Assembly: GCA_002163155.1 (NCBI GenBank)
Contig: MAAO01000002.1
Location: 186,001 to 250,000 of the forward strand
Origin: Halobacteriovorax marinus
Lineage (GTDB): Bacteria > Bdellovibrionota > Bacteriovoracia > Bacteriovoracales > Bacteriovoracaceae
Reading direction: 5' to 3'
Length of the DNA stretch: 64,000 bases
The position numbers were made by a program, and so were the translations under genes. How positions within the stretch are numbered: the first letter of the stretch is position 1; each line of letters begins with the position of its first letter. A model generated the notes under the pieces. That model was not told the DNA's origin and made no database searches. It worked only from the letters and a program-made list of their open reading frames with translations. Below, in pieces: positions 9,401-20,173 of the stretch.

Positions 9401-9778
9401 ATGGAGAAAGCCGAAATATCAAAATTCTTAGCACATGTGTCAAAATGCTCACAGAATGAGTTTAAAATTGTTACAGAACTAAGAAGAATCGTACAAATGA
9501 CTCTGCCTGATCTCGTGGAAAAGATTTCCTATGGCGTTCCCTATTTCTCTGGCAAGAGAAGGGTGTGTTTCATTTGGCCCAGTGTGGTGCCACAGGGTCC
9601 AAGAGAGGGAGTCTGGTTGGGGTTTTGCTATGGTTATAGAATGGATGACCCCAAGGAAATCCTGGAAAAGGGATCTCGCAAACAGGTTTTTACTCTGACT
9701 TTTAAAAATTTAGAGCAAATTGATGAAAGCCTCTTACAAGAGTATCTCTTAGAAGCTAGAATGACTGATCTTAGTTAA
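9401..9778 (+). CDS. DUF1801/YdhG-like small protein
   Basis: 125 aa. The run ISYGVPYFSGKRRVCFIWPS matches the DUF1801 (YdhG/YjbR-like) core, a small alpha/beta fold of unknown biochemical role. The rest is charged and soluble, without a signal peptide. It sits 16 bp before the DUF445 gene, and the two could be cotranscribed. Function unknown. Confidence 0.65.
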   Translation: MEKAEISKFLAHVSKCSQNEFKIVTELRRIVQMTLPDLVEKISYGVPYFSGKRRVCFIWPSVVPQGPREGVWLGFCYGYRMDDPKEILEKGSRKQVFTLTFKNLEQIDESLLQEYLLEARMTDLS

Positions 9779-9794
9779 ATTATAAGGAAAACCC

Positions 9795-10493
9795 ATGAAT
9801 AAAAGCTTACTTACTAATGGTCTCTCTATTGCCCTTATCGGTGTAGGTTATATAACTCCAATGTATTCTCATGAAGTCAAAACCATGGGACTCTACTCCT
9901 TTTCTGGCGCGATCACTAATTGGTTAGCGATTCACATGCTCTTTGAAAAAATTCCTTTTCTCTACGGTTCTGGAATTATAACGGAGAGATTTGAAGAATT
10001 TAAAGAGGGGATAAGAAATATGATTATGAATCAATTCTTTACCCAAGAAAATTTTGAGAAGTTTCTCAGTGAAAATAAATCTAGTCTTATTCAAATTGAA
10101 GAAGAATCAATATTTGAGGCGATAGATTTCGATAAAATTTTTGTAAAACTTAAAGGAGCTATAACTGAGTCTTCTTTTGGTCCTATGCTCGCTATGTTTG
10201 GTGGGGAAGAAGCTCTTGAGCCTCTCAAGCCTCATTTTGAAGCTAAATTTAAAGAATCTATTGCTGAAATTATTGAAGATGAGAAATTTATTGATTCTCT
10301 TATGAAAGGTAGTGAGGGGAATTCTTCACTTTCAGATAGTGTATCGGAAATCGTGAATTCAAGATTGGATGAACTCACGCCACTTATGGTTAAAGAAATT
10401 ATTCAAGAAATGATTAGAGAACACCTTGGTTGGCTCGTAGTTTGGGGTGGTGTTTTTGGTGCTCTCATTGGTCTTGTCACAACTCTAATTTAA
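9795..10493 (+). CDS. DUF445 family membrane protein
   Basis: 232 aa with one hydrophobic stretch at each end and a long helical, acidic middle. The segments GAITNWLAIHMLF and GSGIITERFEEFKEGIRNMI are typical of DUF445 (YheB-like), as is the C-terminal EHLGWLVVWGGVFGALIGLV. Probably an inner-membrane protein with a large soluble loop; the role in the family is not established. Its end overlaps the end of the convergent cusA-like gene by 4 bp. Confidence 0.75.
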   Translation: MNKSLLTNGLSIALIGVGYITPMYSHEVKTMGLYSFSGAITNWLAIHMLFEKIPFLYGSGIITERFEEFKEGIRNMIMNQFFTQENFEKFLSENKSSLIQIEEESIFEAIDFDKIFVKLKGAITESSFGPMLAMFGGEEALEPLKPHFEAKFKESIAEIIEDEKFIDSLMKGSEGNSSLSDSVSEIVNSRLDELTPLMVKEIIQEMIREHLGWLVVWGGVFGALIGLVTTLI

Positions 10494-13400
10494 GTTGTGA
10501 CAGTTTCTATTCTTTTTTGCTCAAAGTAGGAGTAAGTCACAGGAACAATAAATAATGTGACGAGCTCCACTAACATTCCACCTAGTGTGGGAATGGCCAT
10601 AGGTTTCATCACTTCACTTCCGGTACTTGTGGCCCACATCACTGGCAAGAGAGCGACGACAGTAGTAGTCGTCGTCATCACAAGGGGCCTAATTCTTCTA
10701 GATCCCGCTTCAATAATACAATCTTTTAGTTGATTCCAATCTTGTGGTTTATGTTTTTTTATTGCTTCTTGCAGATAGGTCATCATCACGACGCCATCAT
10801 CCACAGCAATACCGAAGAGGGCAATAAATCCCACCCATACGGCCACGGAAGTATTAAATCCACCAATCCAAAGTAGGATAAGTCCACCAGCAAAGGCTAT
10901 GGGAACTGCACTAAAAATAATGGCGGCATTTCTAAGATTTTTAATACCAAAGTATATAATAACTAGATTAATTAGAAGTGCGATGGGAACCAACATAGCA
11001 AGGCGCTTATTTGATCTGACTTGGCTTTCATACTGTCCTGCCCACTGGATAGAATATCCTCTTGGCAGTTCAACAGTCTTTTCAATATGAGTCTTCGCTT
11101 CTTCTACAAAACCTATTAAGTCTCTATCTCTAACATTCAGTAGAACCAGTGATCTTAGGAGTCCATTTTCAGACTGAATCGCCGCGGGTCCTGTGACAAT
11201 GTTAATATGTGCTAATTGCTCTATGGGAATATGTTGTCCAAGGGGACTGGGCACAAGAACTCTTCTTAGTTCATCGATTCTGTCTCTAAGCTCTTTTTTA
11301 TAACGAATTCTAATAGGGTATCTTTCTCGACCTTCATAGAACTGACCTATGGTGATTCCACCCACAGCAGTTTGTAAAATTTGATTAATCGTTCCCGTAT
11401 TTATTCCGTAACGAGAAGCCGCGACGCGATCAATATCAAATTCAATATAGGGTTTTCCTGTAATTTTCTCAGCATAGACACCGTAGGCTCCTCTAACTTT
11501 CTCTACTTCTTTTCCAATTTTTGTTGCGAGAGATTCGAGTGTTTTTAAATTATCACCAAAGATCTTAATTCCTATTTGAGTTTTAATTCCTGTCGAAATC
11601 ATGGAAATTCTATTTTCTATGGGAAAGAGCCAAGCATTTACCAGACCTGGAACTTGCAGTTGCTCATCGAGTTCGGCCATTATGTCATAGATAGATGTTC
11701 CTCTGGGCCACTTACTTTCATCAACTAATTTAACTACAGTTTCAAACATGGCCACAGGAGCCGGATCAATCGCCGTGTTGGCGCGACCTAGTTTACCTAC
11801 TGCTCTTTCGACCAGTGGATGCTCAATAAGTTTCTTGTCTGTATAGGCCAGGAATTCCCTCGCTTTAGTCATGCTAATATCTGGAGTACTCACTGGCATA
11901 TAGAGTATTTCTCCTTCATTTAATGAAGGCATGAACTCCTTTCCAAGTTGCGTGTAGGCAAACCCTCCAAGAAATAATAAGAGTGCAGGAATAACGAGGA
12001 AGATTCTTCTATTTTCTAATACCCAAGAAAGAGCAGGAGTATAAGTATTAACTATAAATGAGCTCACTTTATTTTTTGAAATGGGCTTTAACTTCCCTTT
12101 TAAAAGAAATGTTGCAAGTGCAGGAACGAGAATGATCGCTACAACTACTGAACCAAACATGGCAAGAGTTTTTGCCCAGGCGAGAGGTCCAAAGAGTTTC
12201 CCTTCACTTCCTTCTAGACCAAATACTGGAAGAAAAGTAATAATGGTTGTCATCACTGCGGTTAGAATCGCTGGACCAACTTCTCTAGCTGATTTAACGA
12301 TAATTTCTATTCTCTCTTTCTTGTTTGCATTTGGATGATCGGCAAGATGAGAATAGATATTCTCAGTCATAATGATTCCCATATCGACCATAGAACCAAT
12401 GGCAATGACGAGTCCAGAGAGACTCATGACATTTGAATCAATTCCTATGTACTTCATTAGAATAAAACTGATACCCACTCCAAAAGGGAGTGTGAGAGTC
12501 ACAAGAATTGACGATTTAAAGTGTAGTAAGAAGAGCAGTATAACAATGACGGTTATAATGATTTCTTGTGTGAGAGCAGTGTAGACAGTACCAATAGTTC
12601 TATCAATAACTTCTGTACGATCGTAGAAGGGGACAAGATCTACATCATTTGGAAGACCCATCTTGAGCGCTTTAATTTTCTTTTTAACTCTCTCTATGAC
12701 TTCTTTTGGATTTTCACCAAAACGCATGGTGACGACACCACCAACTGACTCAATACCATTCTTATCAAGGGCGCCACGTCTAAAACCTGGTCCTGTGCCC
12801 ACACTGGCCACATCTTTAACTCGAATGGGGATATGGTTCTTAACTCCTATTACAACATTTTCAATATCTGATAGGGATTTGAAAAATCCTTTTCCACGAA
12901 TTATAAATTCTCTGTCTCCGTCCTCAACGACTTCAGCACCCACATCAATATTGCTATTTTGAATGGACTTAATCAATTTGCTAAAGTGCACATCAAAGGC
13001 AAAGAGTTTTTTTGGATCTACATCGATTTGATACTCTTTTACAAAACCACCAATACTTGCAACTTCACTGACTCCTTCAACGCCTTGTAGGAGGTACTTC
13101 ACGTAGAAGTCTTGAATAGATCTTAGATCAGCAAGAGACTTTGGTTTCTTTGAGCCTTTTGTATTCTCTATGGTGTACCAAAAGACTTGTCCCAGCCCTG
13201 TGGCATCTGGTCCCATTGCTGGATTGGCATCTCTTGGGAGGATTGATTTTGAACCGGTTAGTTTTTCAAGAACTCTTGATCGACTCCAGTAGAAATCAAT
13301 ATCATCTTTGAAAATTACATAGATAGTAGAAAAACCAAAGGCGGAAATCCCTCTCACATTCTTAACACCAGGAATTCCCTGTAGCAGAATACTTAAAGGA

Positions 13401-13600
13401 TAGGTGACTTGTTCTTCAATATCTTTGGGAGATCTTCCCGTCCACTTAGTAAAAACGATTTGTTGATTTTCCCCAATATCAGGGATGGCATCAATTCTAG
13501 CTGTTTTCATACTAAAGATAGAGAGAAGTGCCACAAAAACAAATACTGTGACTACAATCGCCCTCTTTCTAATGGAAAATTCTATGAGGTTTTGAATCAT
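10490..13600 (-). CDS. cusA: Cu(I)/Ag(I)-type RND efflux pump, inner-membrane subunit
   Basis: 1036 aa, heavy-metal RND transporter (HME family) with the usual twelve membrane segments and two periplasmic domains. The three methionines that bind Cu(I)/Ag(I) in E. coli CusA (573, 623, 672) have counterparts: Met568 in ILYMPVSTP, Met618 in PVAMFETVV and Met667 in RISMISTGIK. This favours monovalent copper/silver over the zinc/cobalt CzcA type. Asp406 in GSMVDMG is a candidate proton-relay residue. Last gene of the unit haem-binding protein-cusC-cusB-cusA; it follows cusB by 13 bp. Confidence 0.9.
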   Translation of the reverse strand: MIQNLIEFSIRKRAIVVTVFVFVALLSIFSMKTARIDAIPDIGENQQIVFTKWTGRSPKDIEEQVTYPLSILLQGIPGVKNVRGISAFGFSTIYVIFKDDIDFYWSRSRVLEKLTGSKSILPRDANPAMGPDATGLGQVFWYTIENTKGSKKPKSLADLRSIQDFYVKYLLQGVEGVSEVASIGGFVKEYQIDVDPKKLFAFDVHFSKLIKSIQNSNIDVGAEVVEDGDREFIIRGKGFFKSLSDIENVVIGVKNHIPIRVKDVASVGTGPGFRRGALDKNGIESVGGVVTMRFGENPKEVIERVKKKIKALKMGLPNDVDLVPFYDRTEVIDRTIGTVYTALTQEIIITVIVILLFLLHFKSSILVTLTLPFGVGISFILMKYIGIDSNVMSLSGLVIAIGSMVDMGIIMTENIYSHLADHPNANKKERIEIIVKSAREVGPAILTAVMTTIITFLPVFGLEGSEGKLFGPLAWAKTLAMFGSVVVAIILVPALATFLLKGKLKPISKNKVSSFIVNTYTPALSWVLENRRIFLVIPALLLFLGGFAYTQLGKEFMPSLNEGEILYMPVSTPDISMTKAREFLAYTDKKLIEHPLVERAVGKLGRANTAIDPAPVAMFETVVKLVDESKWPRGTSIYDIMAELDEQLQVPGLVNAWLFPIENRISMISTGIKTQIGIKIFGDNLKTLESLATKIGKEVEKVRGAYGVYAEKITGKPYIEFDIDRVAASRYGINTGTINQILQTAVGGITIGQFYEGRERYPIRIRYKKELRDRIDELRRVLVPSPLGQHIPIEQLAHINIVTGPAAIQSENGLLRSLVLLNVRDRDLIGFVEEAKTHIEKTVELPRGYSIQWAGQYESQVRSNKRLAMLVPIALLINLVIIYFGIKNLRNAAIIFSAVPIAFAGGLILLWIGGFNTSVAVWVGFIALFGIAVDDGVVMMTYLQEAIKKHKPQDWNQLKDCIIEAGSRRIRPLVMTTTTTVVALLPVMWATSTGSEVMKPMAIPTLGGMLVELVTLFIVPVTYSYFEQKRIETVTT

Positions 13601-13613
13601 TTATTAATCCTAA

Positions 13614-15017
13614 TTAGTGGTTGTGTACCGGCGCATTTTTCTTAGAGTCCATCTCGCTTGTAGGATCTTCGTATCCTCCAAAGAGTTGTGCTTGAGCGTC
13701 AAGGACGAAACTTCCTTCCATGACAACTTCATCACCTAAACTAAGACCATGTTTCACTTCTACATAACCTTCTGACTCGTGACCTGTATGAATCTCTATC
13801 GCTCTAAATTGTTTGTTAGAAACTTTCTGCCAAACGACTTTTCTCTTACCAGTATCAATAATGGCAGTTCTTGGAATAACTAGGGGAGTGCCTTCAAAGT
13901 TTATTGTAAGTATGGCATCGGCAACCATTCCGGGTTTTAGTTTTCCTGTGGAATTTTGAATTGTTGTTCTAATCTTTAAGGTTCTTGAATGCATATCTAG
14001 TATAGGATCAACAAAATCAATACTACCTTCGATAATAGTTCCTGGAACAGAAGTGAACTCTAATTCAACCTTTTGACCGAGGCTTACGATTCCTGCGTCT
14101 TGTTCATAGACATCCATTTCCACCCAAACCACTGAGAGGTCAGAGAGCTCAAAGAAGTTCTGTCCTTCTTTAAAATACTTTCCTACGACAGCATTTCTCT
14201 TTCTCACAATTCCGGTAGCAGGAGAGTAGATGACGATACTTTTTGGAATTACCCCTTTTCTGTACCATGAGTTGTATTGTTTTTTCTTAACTCCCCAAAG
14301 TCTGAGACGCTCTTCACTTTGTTTGAGCATATCTTTAAATTCTTTAGATTTCGTTTTTAGAAAACTCTTCTTAGCTAGAAGATACTCTTCTCCAGCGGTA
14401 ATTAGCTTTGGACTATAGATTTTAATAACGGGGTCACCAACTCTAATTAAACTACCCGTAGATTTTACAAATACCTTTTCCACTCTTCCGGAAATTCTGG
14501 CAGGAATACTACTCTCTTTTTCTTCGGACTGTAGAACACTTCCTAGTAAGCGTACTTTCTTGCTCATTTTCATGTTAGTAACGGGGAAATATTCTGGGTA
14601 GAAGTGTTTAAGTTGAGATTTTCTAAGCTTAACTTTCGCAATAACTTTACTTACTTGATCATCCATTTTCATAATCATAGGAGATCCATCAATGGGACAG
14701 ATGTCTTCAAATTCACTTGTAACATCTGGATAGTCTTTACAAATCCAAGTTGGTGCAACGACAACTTTCTTTTCTTTCATTTCCTCTTTGTCACTCTCAT
14801 CAAATTCAATCTTTGTGAGATTCATGTGACAAATGGGACACTTTCCAGGCTTGTCTTCTTTAATTTGAGGATGCATGGCACAGGTATAGAAAGTTTTACT
14901 AGTGTGATCGTGCACTTCCTCTTTGGTATCCATTGAGGCCTTATTTTCAGCTTCCTTGGTACAACCAAAGCTGACTGTTAGAAGAAGAGTTAAGAATATG
15001 AGTCTAAAATTATTCAT
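13614..15017 (-). CDS. cusB: Metal efflux periplasmic adaptor (CusB-like) with heavy-metal-binding domain
   Basis: 467 aa membrane-fusion protein. Lipoprotein signal with lipidated Cys19 (VSFGC). Residues 44-70 (YTCAMHPQIKEDKPGKCPIC) form the Cys/His/Met-rich heavy-metal-binding domain common in this branch, and a second, weaker copy follows (WICKDYP to ICPIDGSPM). The remainder has barrel-sandwich and beta-barrel segments of the HlyD/CusB family. It bridges the inner-membrane pump and the outer-membrane channel and may hand metal to CusA. Its start overlaps the cusC-like gene by 8 bp. Confidence 0.87.
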   Translation of the reverse strand: MNNFRLIFLTLLLTVSFGCTKEAENKASMDTKEEVHDHTSKTFYTCAMHPQIKEDKPGKCPICHMNLTKIEFDESDKEEMKEKKVVVAPTWICKDYPDVTSEFEDICPIDGSPMIMKMDDQVSKVIAKVKLRKSQLKHFYPEYFPVTNMKMSKKVRLLGSVLQSEEKESSIPARISGRVEKVFVKSTGSLIRVGDPVIKIYSPKLITAGEEYLLAKKSFLKTKSKEFKDMLKQSEERLRLWGVKKKQYNSWYRKGVIPKSIVIYSPATGIVRKRNAVVGKYFKEGQNFFELSDLSVVWVEMDVYEQDAGIVSLGQKVELEFTSVPGTIIEGSIDFVDPILDMHSRTLKIRTTIQNSTGKLKPGMVADAILTINFEGTPLVIPRTAIIDTGKRKVVWQKVSNKQFRAIEIHTGHESEGYVEVKHGLSLGDEVVMEGSFVLDAQAQLFGGYEDPTSEMDSKKNAPVHNH

Positions 15018-16215
15018 GTAGAGATTCTCCTAAGATATACTTGAGAGAGACTTTTAATATGTCTCTACTCGCCTCAAGTGTAACTTTCTTTAATAAAATA
15101 CTTTGTAGTTTTAGTTCTGATTGTAAGAGTTCTAAATAAGTTGAATTTCCAAGACCGTAAGATTTAGAAGTTATTTTTCTAGAGTTTTGTGCAAACTTAA
15201 TGGTCTTTTTATTTAAGATTGAAATTTCAGATTGGACTTTCTTAATATCTTTACGTGTGATTTCAATATCTCTGTTTTTACTTCTTTTAAAGTTTTCTAG
15301 GTCTTTCTTTAGACTATACTTCTCATGTACAGCTCTTGCATTCATCGCATACTTCTTACTGGAGAAGGGGAGTGGAAATGCTACTGAAGCACTTACGAAA
15401 TCTCCCATTCCGTCAATGTTTGATCTCTTTGTGTAACCCAGAGAAAATGTCATATCTGGAATATAGTTAAGTTTAGCAGCTGTTAATAAGAAATCCTTCG
15501 AAGCAAGATCTTGTTTTAGTGCGAGTTCTTTAAAATCAAGCTTTGATTTCTTACTTGTATTCAATAACTTCCAAGGAATTGTGTTAAAATTAATTTTCCC
15601 TTTGATTAAATACTCTAATTTATCGTCTAGTTGTGAGAGCGTATAAGTCTTATTGCTAAGAGCAATTTCTAACTCTGACTTTCTAATCTCAAGCTCTAGT
15701 AGTGCTTGTTGAGAAGTTCTTCCATTTGCGTAGAGCTTCTTGCTGATTTTTAAAATCTTAATAATCCACTGATTGTTTTCTTTGAGAATTTGTAGTTCAT
15801 CTAAAATTTTCTTTCTTACGATGACAATTTCCCACAGACTCTTAGTGAGAAGAACTTGTCTATCTCGGGCCTTGTATTCCCGGGCCTTGGCAGATGCAGT
15901 TCCTGCATTTACAAAATTTCCATACTTCGTCGTGAGCGACACCTTTTGAGAAATACCAAATTCAATTCCAGTCATTGGGGTTTGGTTCTTCTTTAAAGTC
16001 TTTTTTGGAAAGTTCTTTGCTATCACACTGAAGGTGGGATCTCCCCATGAACCACTCTCTTTGGCCCTCTCTCTTAAAGCGAGGGAGAGGTTCTCCATAG
16101 ACTGAACACTTTCATGAGTACTTAAACTCTTAGCAGCTTCGTTAAAAGTTACAGCTTCTGTAAACTTTGAAGTTGAAAGCATGAAGACAAATAATATCAT
16201 TTTGTTCTTATTCAT
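15010..16215 (-). CDS. cusC: TolC/CusC-like outer-membrane efflux protein
   Basis: 401 aa with an N-terminal signal peptide and long alternating helical repeats of the OEP family, including GISQKVSLTTKYG and a second-half repeat with YGLGNSTYLELLQSELKLQ, typical of CzcC/CusC-type channels. It forms the outer-membrane conduit for the RND pump encoded downstream. It overlaps the haem-binding gene and the adaptor gene by 8 bp each, so the four genes are one transcription unit. Confidence 0.85.
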   Translation of the reverse strand: MNKNKMILFVFMLSTSKFTEAVTFNEAAKSLSTHESVQSMENLSLALRERAKESGSWGDPTFSVIAKNFPKKTLKKNQTPMTGIEFGISQKVSLTTKYGNFVNAGTASAKAREYKARDRQVLLTKSLWEIVIVRKKILDELQILKENNQWIIKILKISKKLYANGRTSQQALLELEIRKSELEIALSNKTYTLSQLDDKLEYLIKGKINFNTIPWKLLNTSKKSKLDFKELALKQDLASKDFLLTAAKLNYIPDMTFSLGYTKRSNIDGMGDFVSASVAFPLPFSSKKYAMNARAVHEKYSLKKDLENFKRSKNRDIEITRKDIKKVQSEISILNKKTIKFAQNSRKITSKSYGLGNSTYLELLQSELKLQSILLKKVTLEASRDILKVSLKYILGESLHE

Positions 16216-16699
16216 TATTTAATTTCTCGATTGATGACTTAATCCAATTTTGAATAATTTGGACTTCTACATCAGTAAGTGATTCATCTCTATGCATTAT
16301 GGCATATCTAAGGGGAGGCATTTTCCCCTCAGTTAATTGCTTTGAAATAGATTGGAGATCCTTCAAAGGTTTTCCATGACCAAGGAAGGGAAAGTCTTTA
16401 GAGAAATCTAGGTGTTTCTTAGCTTCTCTCGTGTCGTGATCAATTAATTGTTTTACTCCTGGAACTTTATAGTACCAAGGATAGTTAATTTCACTACTGT
16501 GACAATTGAAACAAGACTTCTTAAAGAGAGCTTTCACTTCTTTTAAGTAAGCATTGTTTATCTCAACATAGACTTGTTGGTTTCTGTTAGATACAACTTT
16601 CGTAATCACTTTACCATCAAGGCTTTCGTGCTTATGTTCACTATGTGACCAAGCATTTGTTTGCAAAACCAATATTGTTATCAAAAACCAATACTTCAT
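16208..16699 (-). CDS. Secreted haem-binding-domain protein heading the efflux operon
   Basis: 163 aa with signal peptide. The motif Cys63-FN-Cys66-His67 (CFNCH) is a c-type haem site, followed by SSEINYPWYYKVPGV and GHGKPLKD, the pattern of the Haem_bd family (Pfam). It is His-rich just after the signal peptide. First gene of the unit leading to cusA, under the ECF-type promoter at 16733-16761. A redox role for periplasmic copper is conceivable but not shown by the sequence. Confidence 0.8.
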   Translation of the reverse strand: MKYWFLITILVLQTNAWSHSEHKHESLDGKVITKVVSNRNQQVYVEINNAYLKEVKALFKKSCFNCHSSEINYPWYYKVPGVKQLIDHDTREAKKHLDFSKDFPFLGHGKPLKDLQSISKQLTEGKMPPLRYAIMHRDESLTDVEVQIIQNWIKSSIEKLNNE

Positions 16700-16732: not shown

Positions 16733-16761
16733 ATTACGAGAGGTATGAACCTTTTGTGACA
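16733..16761 (-). promoter_or_regulatory. ECF-type promoter of the efflux operon
   Basis: Read on the minus strand: TGTCACAAA (16761-16753), 12-bp spacer, CTCGTAAT (16740-16733), 33 bp ahead of the start codon of the haem-binding gene. The same bipartite element with the same spacing occurs before the sigma gene and before the DUF3347 gene. The form recalls the TGTCACA-N16-CGTC promoters described for ECF41 sigma factors. Confidence 0.75.
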
Positions 16762-16767
16762 AGTATT

Positions 16768-17301
16768 TTATGCCATTCTAGAAAGATTGAATCGAATCGA
16801 CTTATTGATATTTAACATAAGGATTCCTCCCACTACAGCTCCGAGAAACCACATGGCGGCTAGATCGAGATAAATATCAGCACCAAGAACGAGAAAGGTA
16901 AGAATAGAGAGACCAGATATTGCAAAGTAATAAAGGTTATTCGTTTGTTTGATTTTATAAATTTCTTCAACTTTTAACAGGTAGGCCGCAAAGATAGCTC
17001 CTGATCCGATAAAGATAAATCCACAAAGAGACATACACGCTAGAGCGCCAAATTTATGGTGAAAGAAGTGAAAGAGATCATAGTTATTTGTAAGACTCAT
17101 ATCAAACTGCGGACAGAACAGCAGTGTCAAGGTACCCACAAAGGCCTGGATACATAGGAGCTTTGTGAAGACGAGAGTGTGACTAGGGTTTAATTCATTT
17201 TTTACAAAATCAAGAACTCTTGCTCGAAGTATCGTTTCAGGTCTATTTTCATTTGAGGTTTTAAAATCGGTAAAGTCTTTGCCCGTGTTTAACTTACTCA
17301 T
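16768..17301 (-). CDS. Four-helix membrane protein, probable anti-sigma factor
   Basis: 177 aa. A ~40-residue charged cytoplasmic N-terminus is followed by four hydrophobic helices (about 43-65, 83-109, 122-143 and 147-165) with the His pair HFFHHKFG in the first periplasmic loop. No known domain is recognised. It overlaps the sigma gene by 8 bp, the classic arrangement of an ECF sigma and its membrane-bound regulator. The loop histidines could sense metal. The name is an inference from position and topology. Confidence 0.6.
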   Translation of the reverse strand: MSKLNTGKDFTDFKTSNENRPETILRARVLDFVKNELNPSHTLVFTKLLCIQAFVGTLTLLFCPQFDMSLTNNYDLFHFFHHKFGALACMSLCGFIFIGSGAIFAAYLLKVEEIYKIKQTNNLYYFAISGLSILTFLVLGADIYLDLAAMWFLGAVVGGILMLNINKSIRFNLSRMA

Positions 17302-17830
17302 CTGTACCTCCAGTCATCTTAATTCTAATTTTCTTAAGACCTCTAGAGATTAGTTTTCTCGCGTTGGAGGTAGAAGTGTTTAACTTTTTAGAAATCGTTT
17401 CATAGTCTTCATCAGATAAGTATTTAAGAGAGATGGCCTCTCTTTCTTTATCTGAAAGATTTTTATAATCTTCCAAATTGATCTCAGCTTTGGGAGTTTG
17501 TGAGTCCTGATAAAGAGATTCATCAAATTCTATCGTTTTCATTTTCTTCTTCTTACAAAAATCTAGCAGCTCGGATCTTGAAATTGTGTAGAGCCATTTT
17601 ATAAAGAGATGTTCACTATTGTAGAGGTGCTTACACTTATGCAGTTTTAAGAATATATTTTGAAAGATCTCTTCTTTGGCACTACTATCCGCCATTCTCT
17701 TATTGAGGTAGGTAAAGACTGTTGATTCATGTCGCAAATAAAGAGCTTCAAAGGCCATATAGTCACCTTGCTGATATTTCTCCATTAATTGCTCGTCGCT
17801 GAATTCTTCAGCATCTACAAATGGATTCAT
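17294..17830 (-). CDS. ECF RNA polymerase sigma factor
   Basis: 178 aa. Region 2 runs from EQLMEKYQQGDYMAFEALY through WLYTISRSELLDFCKKKK; region 4 is DKEREAISLKYLSDEDYETI followed by the helix-turn-helix SNARKLISRGLKKIR. There is no C-terminal SnoaL-like extension, so it is not a typical ECF41 member. It is followed directly by a membrane partner and preceded by a copy of the same promoter found upstream of the efflux operon, so it probably activates itself. The promoter -10 lies only 12 bp before the ATG; Met16 (start 17785) is an alternative start. Confidence 0.88.
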   Translation of the reverse strand: MNPFVDAEEFSDEQLMEKYQQGDYMAFEALYLRHESTVFTYLNKRMADSSAKEEIFQNIFLKLHKCKHLYNSEHLFIKWLYTISRSELLDFCKKKKMKTIEFDESLYQDSQTPKAEINLEDYKNLSDKEREAISLKYLSDEDYETISKKLNTSTSNARKLISRGLKKIRIKMTGGTDE

Positions 17831-17842
17831 CCTTCACCCTTC

Positions 17843-17871
17843 ATTACGACCCAAAAATGGATTTTGTGACA
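17843..17871 (-). promoter_or_regulatory. ECF-type promoter of the sigma gene (autoregulation)
   Basis: On the minus strand: TGTCACAAA (17871-17863), 12-bp spacer, GTCGTAAT (17850-17843). One base differs from the other two copies in the -10 part (G for C at the first position). The -10 is very close to the annotated ATG at 17830, implying a leader of only a few bases or a downstream start. Confidence 0.7.
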
Positions 17872-17945
17872 TATACTAATTGAAAGTTAAATTTTCTCTG
17901 TAACTCATTAATATGACAACAAATATCTGAATATTTAGAGAGTTT

Positions 17946-17974
17946 TGTCACAAATCTCCCAAAGCGCTCGTAAT
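17946..17974 (+). promoter_or_regulatory. ECF-type promoter of the DUF3347 gene
   Basis: Plus strand: TGTCACAAA (17946-17954), 12-bp spacer, CTCGTAAT (17967-17974), 55 bp before the start codon at 18030. Both halves are identical to the efflux-operon promoter while the spacer is unrelated, which argues for binding-site conservation and not duplication. Confidence 0.75.
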
Positions 17975-18029: not shown

Positions 18030-18506
18030 ATGAAAAAAATCGTACTTGGTCTTATTATTGGACTTTTAGGCTTTTCAGCCTCAGCTGCTAAAATCAAATT
18101 AGATAATAAGGCGAAAGCTGAAATTATTAAAACACTTGAGGCCAATGAAGAGCTTCATGCTTCTTTCTTTAAATATGACGGGAAAAATGTTGAAACGACG
18201 GCCATGAAAGTATCCAAAGCGATGGGTAATATTTCTAATAAGGATGTGGCGAAACTTTTAAAACATTCTAAAATGATGTTAACTAAAATCAAAGCTGATA
18301 GTAAGAGAGACGAAAATAATCAAAACTATCATATGGTTTCAATGGCACTTATCCACATCATGAATAAATATGATCTAGGAGAAAAGTATAGTGCTTATAG
18401 GTGCCCAATGGTCAAAAAGAAATGGATTCAAAATACTAAGAAGATGGGGAGAGTTCACAATCCTTACGCTCCTAGTATGCCTCACTGTGGTGGGCGTTTA
18501 AGATAA
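18030..18506 (+). CDS. Secreted DUF3347-like protein of the copper regulon
   Basis: 158 aa with signal peptide ending ASAA. The C-terminal end YRCPMVKKKW and NPYAPSMPHCGG follows the 'CPM...NPY...M..CG' pattern of DUF3347, a domain found in CusB-type adaptors and other copper proteins; the Cys and Met residues are candidate Cu(I) ligands. The rest is helical and lysine-rich. A strong AAAGGAG precedes the ATG. Divergent from the sigma gene and behind a sigma-type promoter, so it likely works with the efflux system in the periplasm. Confidence 0.7.
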   Translation: MKKIVLGLIIGLLGFSASAAKIKLDNKAKAEIIKTLEANEELHASFFKYDGKNVETTAMKVSKAMGNISNKDVAKLLKHSKMMLTKIKADSKRDENNQNYHMVSMALIHIMNKYDLGEKYSAYRCPMVKKKWIQNTKKMGRVHNPYAPSMPHCGGRLR

Positions 18507-18532: not shown

Positions 18533-18868
18533 ATGAATTCTCTTTCAAAGAAAAGCTGTATTCCTTGCAAAGGGGGAGTTGATCCAATGCCTTTGGATGA
18601 GCGAAGTGTACTTTTGAAAAGTCTGCATAAAGACTGGGAATTACAATCTGAGAGTAATCGTCTTTTCAGGTCCTATAAGTTTTCTGACTATAAGCGGGCC
18701 TGGGATTTAGCTAATCAAATTAGCGTTCTAGCTGAAGAGCAATTCCACCATCCTGAAATTTCTTTTGGCTGGGGTCATTTAGAAGTAACTCTTTGGACTC
18801 ATAAAATAGGGTCCCTAGTGGAGAGTGATTTCATCTTGGCCGCAAAAATAGATTTACTTACAGTTTAG
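18533..18868 (+). CDS. phhB: Pterin-4a-carbinolamine dehydratase
   Basis: 111 aa. Family signature EEQFHHPEISFGWGHLEVTL followed by THKIG and DFILAAKID; the paired histidines in the HHPE motif are the catalytic ones. The N-terminal CIPCKGG segment also matches. It recycles the tetrahydropterin cofactor of aromatic amino acid hydroxylases. Cytoplasmic, no signal. It follows the DUF3347 gene by 26 bp, with a GGAGG ribosome site, but no functional link is apparent. Confidence 0.9.
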   Translation: MNSLSKKSCIPCKGGVDPMPLDERSVLLKSLHKDWELQSESNRLFRSYKFSDYKRAWDLANQISVLAEEQFHHPEISFGWGHLEVTLWTHKIGSLVESDFILAAKIDLLTV

Positions 18869-18958: not shown

Positions 18959-19534
18959 ATGGCATCTGTAAGTGAACTTTCAACGAGATCTGGATCAAAA
19001 TGTGAATTATGTTTAAGTGCAACTGACTTAGCAACTTTAGACGTAGTGCCAAGTGATGGATCAATAGATAAGTCAATTATGCTTTGTTCTACTTGTAAGG
19101 AACAAATTGAAAATCCTGATAGTGTTGAAGCGAACCACTGGCGTTGTTTAAATGATTCAATGTGGAATGAACATCCTGCTGTGCAAGTCATGGCGTGGAG
19201 AATGTTAAATCAACTAAAAGCCACTGAGAGTTGGGCTCAAGATCTTATCGAACAAATTTACATGGAAGAGACGACACTAGAGTGGGCGAAAGCTGGAATT
19301 CCTGAAGAGGGTAATGCTCCTGTGGTTGTAAAAGATAGCAACGGAACTGTACTCGTTGATGGTGATGAAGTGACTCTCATTAAAGACCTTGTCGTTAAAG
19401 GTGCCAATTTCACAGCTAAGCGTGGAACTATGGTTAAGAATATTTCTCTCAACGGAATCGAAGGTCAAATTGAAGGACGAGTGAATGGAACTAAAATTGT
19501 TCTACTTACTTGCTTTCTTAAGAAACAAAACTAA
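18959..19534 (+). CDS. PhnA/YjdM-family zinc-ribbon protein
   Basis: 191 aa. N-terminal zinc ribbon CELC and CSTC, and a C-terminal PhnA barrel with VKDSNGTVLVDGDEVTLIKD and KRGTMVKNI, the diagnostic PhnA-domain strands. Despite the historical name the family is not a phosphonate hydrolase, and its role is unresolved. It stands alone on the plus strand, its end only 10 bp from the convergent antitoxin gene. Confidence 0.85.
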   Translation: MASVSELSTRSGSKCELCLSATDLATLDVVPSDGSIDKSIMLCSTCKEQIENPDSVEANHWRCLNDSMWNEHPAVQVMAWRMLNQLKATESWAQDLIEQIYMEETTLEWAKAGIPEEGNAPVVVKDSNGTVLVDGDEVTLIKDLVVKGANFTAKRGTMVKNISLNGIEGQIEGRVNGTKIVLLTCFLKKQN

Positions 19535-19544
19535 TCTAGAAGAC

Positions 19545-19868
19545 TTAAGAGGCTAGCTTTATTTTTAAAAGTTTAGCCCGAAGTTTTTCTATTTCTTTAA
19601 TTTCTTTCGAATATACTGGTTTTCCACTGGGGTACATCAATCCTATGGGATTCACCCCAAGCGCCGCAGCCAACCTCTCAGCGTATTTCTTTGTTAGATC
19701 TTGCTTATTATTTTCAAGTCTTGAAATAGTGGCCTTAGGAATTCCTGTAAGAGTTGATAACTCATCTAGGGTAAAGTCCCAGTTATGACGAATGGCCCTA
19801 ATCACACCACCGGAAGACAGCTCATGTTTTTTTAACTTTTGAATAAGTTTTGAAAAATCATTATTCAT
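19545..19868 (-). CDS. HTH antitoxin of a HigBA/RelE-type pair
   Basis: 107 aa. An Xre/Cro-type helix-turn-helix is clear: TLDELSTLTGIPKATISRLE then ALGVNPIGLM. It lies 2 bp downstream of the toxin gene, the toxin-first order seen in HigBA systems. It should bind the toxin and repress the pair through the palindrome at 20192-20209. The C-terminal tail is lysine-rich. Confidence 0.8.
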   Translation of the reverse strand: MNNDFSKLIQKLKKHELSSGGVIRAIRHNWDFTLDELSTLTGIPKATISRLENNKQDLTKKYAERLAAALGVNPIGLMYPSGKPVYSKEIKEIEKLRAKLLKIKLAS

Positions 19869-19870
19869 TA

Positions 19871-20173
19871 CTAGTCTCTCTTGTAATTGTGATTAGTTGT
19901 AACTTTAATAATCTTGATCAGTATTTTCTTTTTATGAAGTTTGTAGATTATTCGACCTGAAATACTAAAGCTTGAAGATCTGAAACCTTCCCATTCATTT
20001 CTAAGCTTATGATCCTTAAAGATTTTATAATTATCAAGCTCTTCGGGACCTTTTTCTTCAATGATCGAAATCCAAAAATCAATGATTTCTAAGTCGTACT
20101 CTGTTAGTTTTTTATTCAATATGAGACGAGAAATCTCTTTTTCAACTTGCTTTGTGTAAGTTACCTTCCACAT
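19871..20173 (-). CDS. RelE/HigB-like mRNA-interferase toxin
   Basis: 100 aa, basic, RelE/ParE fold: TYTKQVEKEISRL at the start and a C-terminal strand pair IIYKLHKKKILIKII with TNHNYKRD. The pattern suits ribosome-dependent RNases of the HigB/RelE group. First gene of the toxin-antitoxin pair. Catalytic residues are not certain by eye. Confidence 0.75.
   Translation of the reverse strand: MWKVTYTKQVEKEISRLILNKKLTEYDLEIIDFWISIIEEKGPEELDNYKIFKDHKLRNEWEGFRSSSFSISGRIIYKLHKKKILIKIIKVTTNHNYKRD

Follow-up and report, generated by a model that had tools for sequence, protein, structure and literature searches.

A candidate copper- or silver-responsive ECF sigma factor regulon with a conserved promoter motif and a putative membrane anti-sigma partner in Halobacteriovorax marinus and its relatives

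Several described ECF sigma factor systems can be compared with the Halobacteriovorax marinus locus analyzed here. ECF41 factors control small, self-contained regulons through the promoter element TGTCACA-n16-CGTC; they carry a fused C-terminal extension and have no anti-sigma factor (Wecke et al. 2012, PMC3426412). In Caulobacter, SigF is paired with NrsF, a multi-span membrane inhibitor (DUF1109; six predicted TM helices) with conserved, probably periplasmic cysteines, and the pair responds to heavy metals (Cr and Cd) with a regulon of DUF2282/DUF692/DoxX-type genes (PMC3511200). Copper handling is linked to the ECF factor CorE of Myxococcus xanthus, which senses copper through its own Cys-containing C-terminal domain and for which no anti-sigma factor was found (PMC3107203), and to SigAb-AabA/AabB of Acinetobacter, a copper-responsive, autoregulated ECF system with a co-encoded anti-sigma factor and a very small direct regulon (promoter GTCAAC / CGTT; direct targets, relA and a small RNA), in which efflux genes are affected indirectly (PMC12153292). 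For Bdellovibrio bacteriovorus HD100, a survey of Group IV sigma factors names bd0743 and bd0881 alone (PMC3464611). In the literature that we searched, which lay largely outside subscription journals, we found neither a Bdellovibrionota sigma/partner pair of the kind reported below nor a copper regulator described for these predatory bacteria.

The window that we analyzed computationally (the whole stretch of 64,000 nucleotides, to which all positions refer) contains three exact copies of the bipartite motif TGTCACAAA-N12-STCGTAAT, found at an ECF sigma factor gene, at an operon encoding a haem-binding-domain protein and CusCBA, and at a gene for a putative secreted protein (Table 1), which confirms the original prediction on this point. 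All three copies are oriented into genes, and their spacers differ in sequence from one another and among the loci of relatives. Dinucleotide shuffles of the window gave a mean of 0.36 matches at up to 3 mismatches, and none reached 4, the observed level. A genome scan, proposed with the prediction, located no exact copy elsewhere in the whole 4.55-Mb genome; the three copies at this single locus are thus not scattered at random. Matches with 2 mismatches numbered 2, the same as for the reversed-pattern control (2), and both sites were dropped as further regulon members because they lack a CGTA -10 box. In its shorter form, TGTCACA-N16-CGTA, the motif occurs without mismatch at the three locus sites alone, and its one-mismatch matches across the genome (20, versus 23 for the control) show no excess and add no regulon members. 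Given that exact copies are limited to three and that mismatched matches do not rise above the control, the regulon detectable by the motif consists of three promoters.

Table 1. Positions of promoters and genes of the locus in the window
Feature	Position	Strand	Evidence or remark
CusA/CzcA heavy-metal RND pump	10490..13600	-	TIGR00914 E 3e-302, over cut-off
CusB-type membrane-fusion protein with heavy-metal-binding domain	13614..15017	-	PF16576 (HlyD_D23) E 8e-66, PF19335 E 3e-10
CusC-type outer-membrane efflux protein	15010..16215	-	PF02321 (OEP) E 2e-20
Haem-binding-domain protein (CxxCH), first gene of the efflux operon	16208..16699	-	PF14376 E 8e-30
Predicted haem-protein/cusCBA operon promoter	16733..16761	-	33 nt before the haem-protein gene; counterpart ahead of haem/cusC in most relatives
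Putative membrane anti-sigma factor/metal sensor, 177 aa, four predicted TM helices	16768..17301	-	8-bp overlap with sigma gene
ECF sigma factor, 178 aa, regions 2 and 4 only	17294..17830	-	Pfam Sigma70_r2 4e-8, Sigma70_r4_2 2e-9
Predicted sigma-gene promoter	17843..17871	-	TGTCACA-N16-CGTA (-35/-10); ATG 12 nt after CGTAAT
Predicted secreted-protein gene promoter, divergent from the sigma promoter	17946..17974	+	55 nt before the gene; counterpart kept in same-genus G043, G044, and G045 (L070, L073, L072)
LIC13259/LIC11441-type protein, putative periplasmic metal-binding	18030..18506	+	NCBIfam NF047615 E 6e-18, below cut-off

The sigma factor belongs to the ECF (group IV) class, with Pfam region 2 at residues 30 to 96 and region 4 (r4_2) at 125 to 168, both above the cut-off, and its profile matches the solved ECF structures SigW, SigE, SigK, and SigH. 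The protein ends 10 residues past region 4 and so lacks an ECF41-type extension, as predicted originally. It has no CorE-type domain, since no further domain follows region 4 and no Cys is found past residue 92. All 57 homologues of this sigma factor have R[KQ]xxSR in the recognition helix, a pattern lacking in six other sigma-like proteins of the same genome. A contig search with the sigma factor alone as the query returned no relative; relatives were found with a close alignment of the partner as the query. The sigma factor may already have a number in an ECF group classification.

Among the predicted targets, the efflux operon encodes a CusCBA system, as the pump scores 1,005 bits against TIGR00914 (cut-off, 701) and is accompanied by CusB and CusC. 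The product of the divergent gene is putatively secreted, judging by eye from a signal-like N-terminus, and shares with its relatives a conserved C-terminus (CPMVKKKW..NPY...M..CG). The DUF3347 label first given to this protein was rejected, since none of 7 members matched that Pfam family even at an E value of ≤1. Its AlphaFold2 model is a helical domain, for which a PDB search gave no significant match. A pterin dehydratase gene (18533-18868) starts 27 nt past the secreted-protein gene and may be cotranscribed with it; a PhnA/YjdM gene (18959-19534) closely follows and might share the same promoter. Farther along (19545-20173), a small HTH gene lies beside a RelE/HigB-like toxin gene, a possible toxin-antitoxin pair by eye. 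At the loci of relatives, the recurring neighbors include CusCBA, a CopZ-like HMA protein, a P-type ATPase, a CsoR-type repressor, and a CopA-type multicopper oxidase.

The membrane partner falls in no Pfam family, whether the window protein alone or 38 members were searched. None of these 38 matched DUF1109 at an E value of ≤0.05. An identity with TauE was rejected: the match (E value, 0.006) was below the Pfam cut-off with partial coverage, and 4 of the 38 members matched (best, 2e-5). The zinc-binding class I anti-sigma domain (Hx3Cx2C) was not found, and the N-terminal 49 residues hold no Cys. The AlphaFold2 model (pLDDT, 90) has four long hydrophobic helices preceded by a short N-terminal segment. 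A Foldseek search of the PDB gave nothing under an E value of 3, and the best VIA-align match, photosystem I subunit L (Z score, 6.8), is within the range of common helical arrangements. Given that there is neither a Pfam anti-sigma domain nor a PDB match to the model, the putative anti-sigma label reflects gene position and linkage. Homologues were present in 73 of 129 genomes of the class with a single-sequence query and, with a profile query, in 198 of 369 Bdellovibrionota genomes, so that more than half of the phylum's genomes sampled carry a member of a family absent from Pfam. None was detected among 72,556 plasmid records.

Cys63, Gln65, Cys89, Cys93, and Trp151 of the partner are invariant in 60 of 60 sequences, and Pro64 and Phe66 are nearly so. 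Position 81 is His in 31 and Met in 23 sequences (54 together), and His78 is variable (kept in 42). His and Met are common Cu(I) ligands. Positive charges cluster at the N-terminus, in the loop at 109 to 122, and at the C-terminus, a distribution that would place residues 63 to 85 outside. Cys63, Cys89, and Cys93, together with His/Met81, are plausible Cu(I)/Ag(I) ligands. Taken with the copper-handling neighbors, these residues make copper or silver the likeliest inducer; other metals are conceivable, as pumps of the CusA/CzcA type can serve them too and distant paralogues of the partner adjoin MerT-like genes. Those distant sigma/partner paralogues (L096, at about 9600-12800; L097-L100) adjoin secreted proteins of about 210 aa, HMA proteins, and MerT-like membrane proteins, with several partner copies in tandem at L096, and possibly constitute a second metal module.

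Among 125 genomes of the class, TGTCACA-N15-TCGTAAT had 35 matches, versus 0 for the reversed pattern, and 32 of the 35 were at sigma/partner loci. In relatives, the sigma gene and the haem/cusC or secreted-protein gene typically flank a divergent motif pair. From 37 sigma-gene and 29 target promoters, we derived the consensus TGTCACAAW-N13-TCGTAWT (i.e., TGTCACA-N16-CGTA). This consensus is the fixed part, because the [CG] originally placed ahead of TCGTAAT did not hold up in relatives (A13 C4 G12 T8 of 37). The search pattern itself preset TGTCACA and CGT, and independent evidence therefore comes from the remaining positions alone, of which A8 (34/37), A9 (32/37), T23 (29/37), and A27 (36/37) are conserved in the sigma-gene promoters; the -10 box is accordingly CGTA in 36 of them. 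In other families of the phylum, the partner gene is immediately preceded on its 5' side by the sigma gene at 20 of 20 loci, most of which keep TGTCACA-N16-CGTA. The motif near sigma is missing in some members, such as those of G155 (L217; Bdellovibrio clade), G055 (L075), and G040 (L093). Two other genomes of the Bdellovibrio clade, G132 and G138 (L248, L249), have a sigma/partner pair that is distinct from bd0881, with no TGTCACA near sigma. We rejected Bd0881 as the B. bacteriovorus counterpart, given that in a genome with the published bd0881 primer site the partner lies about 818 kb away. Promoter-like matches inside sigma genes at L096 (about 10917) and L099 (about 10436) coincide with recognition-helix codons, probably by chance.

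Natural rearrangements separated these genes in three relatives. In G044, cusCBA and the sigma locus are on separate contigs, and the exact motif is still at the start of cusC, where it shares 2 nt with the called start codon, so that translation probably begins a little farther on. In G003 (L082, L251), about 90 kb now separate the sigma gene from the old site; it follows an aldehyde-dehydrogenase-like reading frame at a distance of 7 nt and no longer has the motif, while at the old site the partner and cusC genes retain theirs. In G046 (L077, L084), the old site retains the haem/cus operon and a single partner gene, both with motifs, and the sigma gene, accompanied by another partner copy, is found about 56 kb off with no motif. 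It is thus the efflux and partner genes that the motif accompanies. In both G003 and G046, the partner gene is directly behind the TGTCACA promoter with no sigma gene between; there the partner would be a target separate from the sigma factor itself, i.e., a negative-feedback arm. Together with the cross-species conservation, these three cases strongly support the proposal, already made in the original prediction, of a self-contained, autoregulated ECF regulon.

The spacing between the motif and the sigma gene is also conserved. At 24 of the 26 loci where the motif matched, CGTAAT ends 7 to 16 nt (commonly 12) before the sigma start codon, and at the remaining 2 the ORF caller seems to have picked an upstream in-frame start; target genes mostly begin about 20 to 35 nt past CGTAAT. 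The sigma start codon is probably correct, as the N-terminal MNPF...DE.LM is conserved. In the operon of the Sinorhizobium ECF41-type factor RpoE9, the mapped start is 9 nt downstream of the same element (PMC3616915). By this yardstick, the sigma mRNA would have a leader of about 5 nt and be near-leaderless, which may limit sigma relative to its inhibitor.

We consider it probable that the locus is an autoregulated, Cu(I)/Ag(I)-responsive ECF switch in which the motif is the promoter of the sigma factor and the four-helix partner holds the sigma factor until metal frees it. At rest, the partner would tether sigma at the inner membrane via its cytoplasmic N-terminus of about 40 residues. Cu(I) or Ag(I) at the periplasmic face would bind the cluster of Cys63, Cys89, Cys93, and His/Met81, alter the helix bundle, and free sigma, which would direct RNA polymerase to TGTCACA-N16-CGTA ahead of its own sigma/anti-sigma operon, the haem-protein/cusCBA operon, and the secreted-protein gene. 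Because the pump and more of the inhibitor would be produced, the response would shut off as the metal falls. Speaking against this explanation are the lack of a Pfam anti-sigma domain and of a PDB match for the partner, the missing motif near sigma in some members, the variability of His78, the range of metals that such pumps can serve, and a near-leaderless start, which would weaken translation of the autoregulated transcript.

An alternative that keeps the motif as the promoter of the sigma factor makes the partner a mere tether, with the signal coming from proteolysis, another periplasmic protein, redox/disulfide stress, or a metal other than copper or silver. Membrane anti-sigma factors are often freed by proteolysis (PMC3426412), and in Caulobacter NrsF two conserved Cys matter, yet chromate and cadmium are the inducers (PMC3511200). 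Cys residues alone cannot tell metal sensing from disulfide sensing, and distant partner paralogues are next to MerT-like and HMA genes. However, three invariant Cys and His/Met at one membrane face, with recurring copper-handling neighbors, favor direct sensing of Cu(I)/Ag(I), and we regard the tether alternative as unlikely, if by no means negligible. Chance matches or repeats have practically no standing as an account of the motif, as they are refuted by the whole-genome and multigenome counts, the unrelated spacers, and the conservation across 20 further loci of the phylum.

The conserved element might instead be the operator of a conventional transcription factor, given its very strong conservation and its proximity to the sigma start codon. 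We find this highly improbable because the element is asymmetric, with two boxes at a fixed 16-bp spacing oriented into the gene, its -10 region contains CGT as in ECF promoters generally (PMC3426412), and the sigma factor is the sole DNA-binding regulator common to the loci. Another alternative assigns the sites to a resident ECF41-type sigma factor rather than to the adjacent one. The published ECF41 element (PMC3426412) has the same -35 box and spacing, and the same H. marinus genome encodes an ECF41-like factor (G000:C11:61827-62708 [L173]; 233.8 bits against TIGR02957, below the cut-off) with a divergent TGTCAC-N17-TGTC pair, so that two ECF factors with the same -35 box coexist. Perfect TGTCACA-N16-CGTC pairs are present in two relatives, and the recognition helices of three ECF41-like proteins, whose -35 box is likewise TGTCAC, read RKxx[QE]R. 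The -10 boxes differ, however (CGTAAT versus CGTC/TGTC), the copper sigma/partner gene is accompanied throughout the class by the CGTAAT form, and a strong ECF41 match was found in just 3 of 57 genomes searched, whereas CGTA sites were found in many; we therefore give this assignment very little credence. For the adjacent sigma factor as the owner of the promoters, we infer that the common -35 box reflects a shared R-K/Q-x-x-x-R readout and that the two regulons are kept distinct by the -10 region. Such a cell, in which two ECF sigma factors with one -35 box and spacing would be separated by the -10 box alone, offers a natural test of this separation.

A broader proposal, which we hold tentatively and judge somewhat more apt to fail than to stand, is that these pairs are phylum-wide one-protein metal sensors. 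In it, four-helix, non-Pfam anti-sigma factors would bind Cu(I)/Ag(I) through the invariant Cys of C(P)QF and CxxxCG plus His/Met on the periplasmic side and release an ECF factor with an ECF41-type -35 box and a near-leaderless, autoregulated mRNA; in Bdellovibrionota, this would act as the principal switch for copper efflux, insulated from ECF41 in some genomes by the -10 box alone. For these predatory bacteria, we thus offer a circuit with a predicted promoter and regulon, and the compact set of sigma factor, partner, and promoter could serve synthetic biology as a copper- or silver-responsive part.

Compared with described systems, the locus has the -35 box TGTCACA, the 16-bp spacing, and the small self-contained regulon of ECF41 (PMC3426412), and the resemblance drawn in the original prediction was right in that the -35 box and spacing are identical and the -10 box is CGTA, not CGTC. 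It differs from ECF41 in having a co-encoded membrane partner and no extension, and the sigma factor scored 19.8 bits (cut-off, 323) against TIGR02957, the nearest available proxy for the ECF41 family. It resembles Caulobacter SigF-NrsF in combining an ECF factor with a multi-span membrane protein with conserved Cys and a probable heavy-metal response, and differs in that the partner has four helices, not six, and no Pfam family, and in its predicted metal and regulon (PMC3511200). With CorE it shares a likely link to copper handling, and it differs in its probable use of a separate sensor (PMC3107203); with SigAb it shares a probable copper response, probable autoregulation, a co-encoded putative anti-sigma factor, and a very small regulon, and it differs in its promoter and in the predicted direct control of efflux genes (PMC12153292). 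The kind of system, an autoregulated ECF switch that probably responds to copper or silver, is thus already known, and what is probably new is the non-Pfam partner family and the phylum-wide conservation of its promoter.
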